Below are positions 667 through 2,708 of a stretch of DNA of 5,632 nucleotides, piece by piece (within the stretch, counting starts at the first letter, position 1; each line of letters begins with the position of its first letter). A program made the position numbers and the translations under genes. The notes beneath the pieces are model-generated. The model was not told the origin of the DNA and searched no databases. It saw only the letters and a program-made list of their open reading frames with translations. The stretch comes from an uncultured Holophagaceae bacterium (lineage in GTDB: Bacteria > Acidobacteriota > Holophagae > Holophagales > Holophagaceae), in contig CAIRAS010000060.1 of NCBI GenBank assembly GCA_903876615.1, positions 1 through 5,632 on the forward strand. The letters are read 5' to 3'.

Positions 667-698
667 GTTTTGGAGGCATTTTCCGGGCCTGGGGGAGT

Positions 699-714
699 TG
701 GCACGGGGCTTGAT
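699..714 (+). promoter_or_regulatory. Sigma-54 (-24/-12) promoter of pilA
   Basis: TGGCACG (699-705), four bases (GGGC), then TTGAT (710-714) matches the RpoN consensus TGGCACG-N4-TTGC at every consensus base except the last, where A713 replaces C. The spacing between the invariant GG (700-701) and the G of the -12 element (712) is exactly canonical. Transcription would start near 725, leaving a leader of about 38 nt before the pilA ATG at 763. Sigma-54 control through PilS/PilR is well established for pilin genes in Pseudomonas, Myxococcus and Geobacter, so motif and context agree. Confidence 0.75.
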
Positions 715-1281: not shown

Positions 1282-1299
1282 CTCTTAGCAAGCAGTTGG

Positions 1300-1330
1300 A
1301 AGGGGGGGCCTCGAGCCTCCCCTTTTTTTT
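1300..1330 (+). terminator. Intrinsic terminator of pilA
   Basis: A GC-rich hairpin pairs AAGGGGGGGC (1300-1309) with GCCTCCCCTT (1315-1324), with one G-T pair and a 5-base loop. T1323-T1330 forms an uninterrupted eight-T run. It begins 19 bases after the pilA stop codon. This is a textbook Rho-independent terminator and makes pilA a self-contained transcription unit. Confidence 0.93.
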
Positions 1331-1514
1331 CGTTGCTGCCTGCCAGCAGGGCACGGCGCCCCCAAGCGTTCGGGTGTAATGGCCGACAGGCCGCTGCAGG
1401 TTCCCACCGCGCTGAACGGGGGACGAGTCCCCTTCCCTCCGGAACGCACCTTCCGAGGGCTCCATCCATGGGAGGTGCCGAAGTGCGGTCATCCGGTCGC
1501 GGACAAATCGGCGC
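1331..1514. other. Intergenic stretch with no recognisable gene
   Basis: I see no credible gene here. Short open frames lack ribosome sites and family resemblance. It contains a near-perfect inverted repeat GGGGAC-GA-GTCCCC (1419-1432) and a small CCTG/CAGG hairpin near 1339-1350. I looked for the missing 5' part of the pilin remnant that follows (leader, FTLIE helix) and found no trace in any plus-strand frame. This is presumably where the deletion or replacement occurred. Confidence 0.5.
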
Positions 1515-1622
1515 GTCGGCGTGAGTGGCTACGTTTCAGTGGTGACTTACGTGAATGGATCATTCAAGGACTCTACCGGCACCGCCGTAAATGTTTTCGG
1601 CACAGGTATCGGCTTAGACTAG
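1515..1622 (+). pseudogene. 3' remnant of a second pilin gene (5'-truncated pilA paralogue)
   Basis: Read in the frame ending at TAG 1620-1622, this stretch encodes the C-terminus of a pilin closely matching the intact pilA next door. YVNGSFKDSTGTAVN aligns without gaps to YVNSSFKDSTATAVN of PilA, and both proteins end with the same number of residues after it (…GLD stop versus …GLE stop). Over the 35 codons from 1515, about 19 residues are identical. Codons differ at many synonymous positions, so this is an old paralogue rather than a recent copy or assembly artefact. The leader, the hydrophobic N-terminal helix and most of the globular domain are absent. No ribosome site or convincing start precedes it, so it is almost certainly not made into protein. 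A hairpin starts 19 bases after its stop, exactly as after pilA. A promoterless donor cassette is an alternative reading but has less support than simple decay. Confidence 0.8.
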
Positions 1623-1640
1623 GGCCTGTGGATCCTCGGT

Positions 1641-1663
1641 CGGGGGGCCCCGGAGTCCCCCCG
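1641..1663 (+). terminator. Hairpin after the pilin remnant, probably a decayed terminator
   Basis: CGGGGGG (1641-1647) pairs perfectly with CCCCCCG (1657-1663) around a 9-base loop. It starts 19 bases after the stop codon of the pilin remnant, the same spacing as the pilA terminator. It is not followed by a T run, so it should be a poor terminator now. Position and G-run/C-run composition suggest it is the relic of the paralogue's own terminator. Confidence 0.5.
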
Positions 1664-1799
1664 GCGCAGGTCTCGGCTTCGAGTTTTCACCCCTGCCTCC
1701 CGGGTGGGGCTTGTTCCCGTCAGGATTCCCTTCGCAACCCTGGAAGCCCCTCTGGGGTAAGAGGCGATACCATCAGGGCAGGCCTTCGAGGGGCAGCCA
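1664..1799. other. Upstream region of the ABC operon, no clear promoter
   Basis: No gene is visible. A short inverted repeat CACCC/GGGTG (1688-1692 with 1702-1706) and CCCC-TCT-GGGG (1747-1757) are present but weak. The best -10-like hexamer is TACCAT at 1768-1773, with no matching -35 box at the right distance, so I do not call a promoter. No sigma-54 motif was found here. The operon's promoter must lie in this region or further upstream past the remnant. Confidence 0.4.
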
Positions 1800-1805: not shown

Positions 1806-1814
1806 TTGGGCGAG

Positions 1815-2708
1815 ATGGAGTGGGTCATTCAAACATCAGGACTGAGCCTCCGCTACGGTCCAAGGCTGGTGGTGGATGGCTTGGACCTGCGGGTGCGCCC
1901 CCAGGCCATCACGGGCTTTCTGGGCCCCAATGGTGCCGGGAAGACCACCACCATTTCCCTGCTGCTGGGCTTGCTGAAACCCAATGGAGGCTCGGCCGAA
2001 GTGCTTGGCCTGCCCCCGGGCGCCCCCGCGGCCCTCGCCCAGATTGGGGCCCTGGTCGAATCGCCAGCCCTCTATGACCACCTCACGGGGCTGGAGAATC
2101 TGGAGATCACCCGGCTCATGCGGGACCTGCCCCGGGCCGAAGCGGATCGGGTGCTGGGCTTGGTGCAGCTCGTCCAGGATGCCCGGCGGCCGGTGCGGGA
2201 GTATTCCCTGGGCATGCGCCAGCGACTGGGTGTGGCCCTCGCCCTCATGGGGCAGCCCCGGCTACTGATCCTTGACGAACCCACCAACGGCCTGGATCCC
2301 GCGGGCATTCAGGACATGCGGGAACTGATCCGGCGTCTCCCTCTGGAGACCGGGGCTTCGGTGTTTCTCTCAAGCCACATGCTGGCCGAGGTGGAACAGG
2401 TGGCCCAGGATCTGGTGGTCATTCACAAAGGCAGGCTGAAATACCAGGGTCCCATGGAGCAGCTGGGCGCCCGGGAGCAGGTCGAGCTGGTGGTGCGCGT
2501 GGGGGACCCCGCTCAGGCGCAGGCAGTCCTGGCACAGGCGGGCTTCGCCTGCCAGGAGCGCGACGGCCGGGTGCTGATTCAGGCCGCGCTCGACCAGGCA
2601 CCCCGCGTGGCAGCCTCGCTGGTGGCGGGAGGCTGCGATCTCTACGAGCTGAGCCCTCACAAAGCCAACCTGGAGGCCCGCTTCCTGGCCCTGCTGGAGG
2701 AGGCATGA
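1815..2708 (+). CDS. ABC transporter ATP-binding protein, BcrA/CcmA type
   Basis: This 297-residue cytoplasmic ATPase powers the ABC-2 exporter formed with the two membrane proteins encoded next. Walker A is GPNGAGKT (37-44). The Q-loop region reads GALVESPALYDHLTGLENL, with Glu82 where many ABC proteins have Gln; this is a known variant in the bacitracin/lantibiotic-resistance branch. The signature is YSLGMRQRLG (130-139), also characteristic of that branch. Walker B is LLILDEP (150-156), followed by the D-loop NGLD and the switch His188 (SSHML). Residues from about 215 form a C-terminal extension, as in BcrA-like ATPases of about 300 residues, with the usual LEARFLALLEE ending. The stop TGA overlaps the ATG of the first permease (ATGA, 2705-2708), indicating translational coupling. 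The family exports or confers resistance to peptide antibiotics, or moves other hydrophobic substrates. The substrate cannot be read from the sequence. Confidence 0.93.
   Translation: MEWVIQTSGLSLRYGPRLVVDGLDLRVRPQAITGFLGPNGAGKTTTISLLLGLLKPNGGSAEVLGLPPGAPAALAQIGALVESPALYDHLTGLENLEITRLMRDLPRAEADRVLGLVQLVQDARRPVREYSLGMRQRLGVALALMGQPRLLILDEPTNGLDPAGIQDMRELIRRLPLETGASVFLSSHMLAEVEQVAQDLVVIHKGRLKYQGPMEQLGAREQVELVVRVGDPAQAQAVLAQAGFACQERDGRVLIQAALDQAPRVAASLVAGGCDLYELSPHKANLEARFLALLEEA

Follow-up and report, generated by a model that had tools for sequence, protein, structure and literature searches.

Between the type IV pilin gene pilA and the ABC transporter gene that follows it, the DNA of an uncultured Holophagaceae bacterium carries a short segment, 1515–1622, that reads as the end of a pilin. 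The question raised by this locus is whether the segment is the remnant of a second pilin gene, and if so of which gene and by which route, or an element that still serves pilA. The window, i.e. the whole stretch of 5,632 nucleotides analysed here, has on its plus strand genes for a TPR protein, PilA, an ABC ATPase and two permeases, while its minus strand carries another pilin-like gene together with a T2SSF (pilC-type) gene, as assigned with Pfam. A homology search placed the loci closest to the window in Holophagaceae and Geothrix, and three of them (L001, L003 and L004) share its order TPR–pilA–ABC–permease–permease–pilin–pilC. Of 13 contigs bearing this pilA the longest measures 5632 nt, and the window is therefore probably a complete metagenome contig, so that the segment could in principle stem from an assembly error in which two genomes were fused. 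This is very unlikely, given that the genes on both sides keep the order of L001, L003 and L004, with identities of 88–93% for the TPR protein and 86–89% for the ABC ATPase.

Translation of 1515–1622 yields VGVSGYVSVVTYVNGSFKDSTGTAVNVFGTGIGLD followed by a stop codon. The sequence-only reading had claimed that this segment encodes a pilin C-terminus matching the last 35 codons of pilA without gaps, and the alignment bears this out: 19 of 35 residues are identical, the stop codon is shared, and the protein score of 87 lies above all of 1000 dinucleotide-preserving shuffles of the intergenic DNA scored in six frames (maximum 51). At the DNA level 64 of 108 nucleotides are identical (score 24, shuffle maximum 19) and different codons encode 11 of the 19 shared residues, in keeping with the many synonymous differences that had been described. 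The pilin homology begins at approximately 1515–1518. From 1282 to about 1515 nothing pilin-like rose above shuffle level in the three plus-strand frames, and the segment has neither a start codon nor an N-terminal helix and gives no N_methyl match in Pfam; the 5′ end is thus missing, as had been proposed. Judged by this significant homology, 1515–1622 is the 3′ stump of a lost second pilin gene. The features of the locus are collected in the table.

Table. Features of the pilA–ABC interval and its flanks (positions in the window)
Feature	Positions	Strand	Basis
Sigma-54-like promoter element of pilA, TTGGCACG-N4-TTGAT	698..714	+	Exact motif match, 48 nt 5′ of start codon
Open reading frame of the type IV pilin gene pilA, 172 aa	763..1281	+	Pfam N_methyl, E 1.1e-10; nearest of the 120 listed homologues (best of 1360) 76–81% identical
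Intrinsic terminator of pilA	1298..1330	+	12-pair hairpin and T run; fold z -2.58
Spacer, pilA terminator to stump, 184 nt	1331..1514	+	Only noise-level matches
Stump of second pilin gene (3′ end: 35 codons plus stop)	1515..1622	+	Translation, alignment, tree
G-C-rich hairpin, then 21-nt imperfect repeat of the stump's end, then TTTT	1634..1687	+	Repeat/inverted-repeat search
ABC transporter ATPase gene	1806..2708	+	Pfam ABC_tran; same gene 3′ of pilA in closest relatives

The element upstream of pilA matches all ten fixed bases of TGGCAC-N5-TTGA, a motif that resembles a sigma-54 promoter, and is the sole match in the window at up to three mismatches (mean chance expectation 1.23). In the relatives, 39 of 54 loci have one or more pilins preceded by nine or ten of the fixed bases, as are 45 of 113 pilins when all types are counted; shuffled regions reach at most eight; the element there mostly starts 45–68 nt 5′ of the pilin start. 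A hairpin and T run like those at 1298–1330 also stand 3′ of pilA in L001, L003 and L004. For the stump, the best promoter element found in 1335–1520 has six of ten fixed bases, which is shuffle level, and seven if 1282–1334 is included. The two pilin copies of L126 score 9 and 10 of 10, and later copies of tandem pilins score 9–10 in L126, L130, L147, L148, L162 and L163. Intact later copies nevertheless score 6–8 in L011, L017, L045, L139 and L161, so that the absent element argues only weakly for decay, and an intact later pilin copy may be viable without one. Expression of the stump would not be expected in any case, as no start codon with a pilin signal precedes it and the terminator of pilA stands upstream of it. 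With regard to base composition, GC3 is 0.60 in the stump, 0.71 in pilA and 0.81–0.90 in the ABC, TPR and minus-strand pilin genes, pilA (763–1281) thus lying below these three neighbours.

Whether relatives hold more than one pilin at such a place was read from the gene order of 54 loci in 53 genomes (14 via the closest-loci search and 39 of 77 family genomes). Two to four neighbouring pilA-type pilins occur in 13 of the 54 (L010, L011, L016, L017, L045, L126, L130, L139, L147, L148, L161, L162 and L163), and 12 of these have at least two complete open pilin frames, the second frame of L010 running off its contig. L157 and L159, each with two neighbouring same-strand pilins of which one is of the pilC-side type, and L164, with two pilins about 2 kb apart, were not counted as tandem. 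The three closest relatives, L001, L003 and L004, have a single pilin each, and where the same ABC gene follows directly 3′, eight of the nine measured loci have a single pilin, L126 alone having two. The arrangement in L126 is pilin–pilin–ABC with gaps of 127 and 119 nt, and the full-length tree gives the ABC-proximal copy a longer branch than the other (0.55 vs 0.11); the TPR neighbour was not found in the stretch fetched for L126, which resembles the window on the ABC side only. The earlier suggestion that the locus once held tandem pilins is thus favoured by the frequency of tandems in the family and disfavoured by the single pilin of most ABC-linked loci. As to an intact counterpart at the place of the stump, L126 has two open pilins ahead of the ABC gene and the eight other measured loci have one.

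Further copies of the stump were sought in several ways. As a protein query against the 77 family genomes it matched seven, six of which are ordinary pilin loci, and the match in G063 was rejected as a chance match in an unrelated stretch. A tblastn search of the 54 loci and the window with the listed pilins masked showed, apart from the stump itself, no further pilin stumps: the candidates with E < 1e-8 in L016, L130, L152, L155 and L158 proved to be frames of ordinary pilins missed by the motif filter (the one in L130 is truncated where the locus ends, and the one in L152 is interrupted by a gap of Ns), and weaker matches with E from 3.7e-5 to 0.008 were judged composition noise. Viral contigs contained no match to a degenerate DNA pattern of the stump, and scanning them with pilA gave four weak loci that were left unused.

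The parentage of the stump was approached by scoring it against the 120 listed homologues, the best of 1360, a set that includes the window's pilA and leaves out P0122–P0134. The top match was not pilA but P0014, with a score of 117, whereas P0005, the window's own pilA and P0003 scored 87, 86 and 86. P0014 is an intact, divergent pilin known from a 950-bp contig; it is identical to the stump at 22 of 34 residues, and the two have the common end N-V-F-x-T-G-I-G-x-D. A C-terminal tree pairs them with support 99/91, from few columns and with an unsettled bootstrap. In the full-length tree P0014 groups with the window's pilA and P0003–P0006 (89/92) on a long branch, at a fork that is not starred and a place that the tool calls unsure. 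The alignment shows that P0014 and pilA differ almost throughout and not just at the tail, and no close orthologue of it was found in the 77 family genomes (best 57%). The top match and the C-terminal tree in combination suggest that the parent of the stump was probably an already divergent pilin of the clade of pilA and P0003–P0006, and not a late copy of pilA. Of the duplication originally proposed, the second pilin gene is therefore retained, whereas simple copying of the neighbouring pilA seems improbable.

Divergence was measured over the 35 codons. Between stump and pilA, pS is 0.63 and pN 0.34; over the same stretch, pilA differs from L001 and L004 with pS 0.51 and pN 0.33, and from L003 with pS 0.82 and pN 0.38. 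The values for stump and pilA are ordinary for functional pilin pairs and agree with the claim that stump and pilA diverged under selection. Since the divergence of the stump is like that of open pilins, its function was probably lost after most of that divergence had accumulated.

From the stop of pilA to the ABC frame there are 524–525 nt in the window and 109–168 nt in the nine relatives measured (L001–L006, L009, L125 and L126), where the gap was measured from the ABC-proximal pilin and with ABC starts placed by hand from tblastn matches, which makes them estimates. In 77 family genomes, with up to eight candidates scored per genome, the intergenic DNA matched 71, but weakly and at scattered places (best per-genome E 0.0016), which was taken as noise, and it had no match in plasmids. 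Rfam matches in the window all fell below the curated scores, and an RNA element accordingly offers no explanation. The portion 1335–1514 is 69% GC. On the other side of the stump, its end (1598–1618) recurs 64 nt downstream at 1662–1682 with 18 of 21 nucleotides identical, and this repeat sits between the G-C-rich hairpin and TTTT as though inserted in an old terminator. A terminator scan reports nothing at 1634–1687 and the fold is no better than that of shuffles (z 0.38); perhaps the element would represent the disrupted terminator of the lost gene.

According to the main rival explanation, the stump would be the tail of a former resident pilA, left as a scar when the present pilA and its terminator were recombined in upstream of it. 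The stop of the stump lies 183 nt 5′ of the ABC frame, little above the range of the relatives, and the single pilin of eight of the nine ABC-linked loci points the same way. The recombination would have been anchored in the conserved upstream flank, and the region around 698–714, a possible anchor, indeed aligns strongly with L001, L003 and L004. Furthermore, pilA is strongly variable among close relatives, with 52–60% identity where the TPR neighbour reaches 88–93%. However, with neighbouring pilins in 13 of 54 loci an import is unnecessary, and the DNA flanking the stump on its 3′ side shows no alignment to that 3′ of pilA in L001, L003 or L004. Compared with L002, none of 300 shuffles aligned as well as this flank, and with L009 eight of 300 did. 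In view of both sides, we regard such a replacement as unlikely, albeit worth keeping in mind.

The account that we favour, and hold to be likely, is that a second pilin gene, one of a tandem pair, stood between pilA and the ABC gene and was lost, and that the stump is its dead remnant, approximately the final fifth. It draws on the 525-nt gap, the tandem pilins of the relatives and the significant gap-free match, as well as on P0014 as an intact divergent best match, the ordinary pS and pN and the scores of promoter-like elements. A tandem pilin pair would once have been present, and its downstream copy would have diverged, as the L126 copy nearest the ABC gene did in the one case seen. A deletion or replacement, rather than a crossover between both pilins, would then have removed the start and about the first 135 codons, a part whose absence is evident from the sequence, so that the last 35 codons and the stop remained. 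The upstream pilA, retaining its promoter-like element and terminator, is presumably the working gene. Against loss from a tandem pair stand the 184-nt spacer, which exceeds the 127 nt that separate the two pilins of L126, the placement of P0014, which uses just 35 codons, and the fact that L126 is the only one of nine ABC-linked loci with two pilins. Most likely, then, the stump is an ordinary relic of the way in which tandem genes come and go.

A broader reading arises from tandem pilins in two of the relatives. The pairwise table comprised 6441 pilin pairs that differed in length by no more than 120 nt and had over 100 codons aligned; same-locus pairs, listed only above 50% identity, numbered 17, and two of these (L148 and L161) were found to be recoded. 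The pair at L148:5537-6737 (G040:C1:2911536-2912736) is identical at 167 of 174 residues (96%) with pS 0.56 and pN/pS 0.055, and 73 of its 174 codons, as well as the stop codon, differ synonymously. The silent-site distance between its copies matches that of each copy from the G. limicola pilin (pS 0.55 and 0.61), to which the protein is only 83% identical. The pair at L161:5211-6293 (G049:C28:288710-289792) is 99% identical over 153 residues, with pS 0.49 and pN/pS 0.012, and the next relative of its copies in the set reaches 67%. By comparison, the lowest pN/pS among 4895 between-locus pilin pairs at pS 0.4–0.65 was 0.176, a control of non-independent pairs from which L162–L163 pairs and pairs outside that pS range were left out. 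The pairs in L162 and L163, whose pS is 0.09 and 0.02, have the look of simple duplications of recent date. Exact runs in the recoded pairs measure 23 and 26 nt and are not shorter than with shuffled codon order, which offers no hint that long runs as such are selected against.

From these pairs it could be argued that Holophagaceae have a birth-and-death pilin array, whose surviving neighbours keep the same protein while their DNA drifts or is driven apart synonymously, which would block recombinational collapse, and that the stump is one of its casualties. Lineages in which this fails would lose the second gene, as here, both this step and the cause of the recoding being presumed. The stump itself shows ordinary divergence, unlike the recoded pairs, and we consider its origin in such an array improbable. 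Its significance is more modest: it records a loss from a probable tandem pilin pair in Geothrix and kin and, as a small fossil, is of use chiefly in drawing attention to the gain and loss of pilins in Holophagaceae. Tandem pilins as such are already found in the family, where the stump is a real but ordinary case; the protein-identical, synonymously diverged tandem pilins of the two relatives may merit a study of their own. Judged by titles and listings, the literature yielded no account of pilin gene history in Geothrix and kin, and among the matches listed for tandem duplicates and synonymous change none concerned bacterial pilins by title.

Silent pilS loci are defined by tracts identical to the expressed gene, by alleles that carry such tracts and by several partial copies per genome. 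The sequence-only reading had raised, as a second possibility, that the stump is a promoterless donor cassette of this kind, giving pilA alternative C-termini through gene conversion, in the way that pilS of Neisseria serves pilE. The variable C-terminus that the stump covers, next to an open pilin gene, would fit such a role, as would P0014, an intact pilin with a stump-type tail, though one unlike pilA elsewhere. Nevertheless, the longest in-register run common to stump and pilA is 9 nt, no long direct or flanking repeats were found around the copies, the nearest pilA homologues P0003–P0006 do not have the stump-type tail, and besides the one stump in the window no other was seen in the 54 relative loci. 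The proposal thus finds little support, and we give it hardly any credence. The silent pilin loci pilS of Neisseria (PMC3547852, PMC3899283) resemble the stump in that they are partial pilin copies that contain the C-terminus and have no recognisable promoter. Unlike pilS, the window has one stump, with no long tracts or flanking repeats and no sign of conversion, and its identity to pilA is confined to the 64 of 108 nucleotides noted above. The other comparison is with the tandem pilins of Holophagaceae and Geothrix, in L126 and the 12 other loci, where members of the same pilin family likewise stand beside an open pilA-type gene and where L126, like the window, continues downstream with the run ABC–permease–permease–pilin–pilC. 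In those tandems at least two copies are open (the off-contig second copy of L010 aside), whereas in the window the second is a 35-codon stump.
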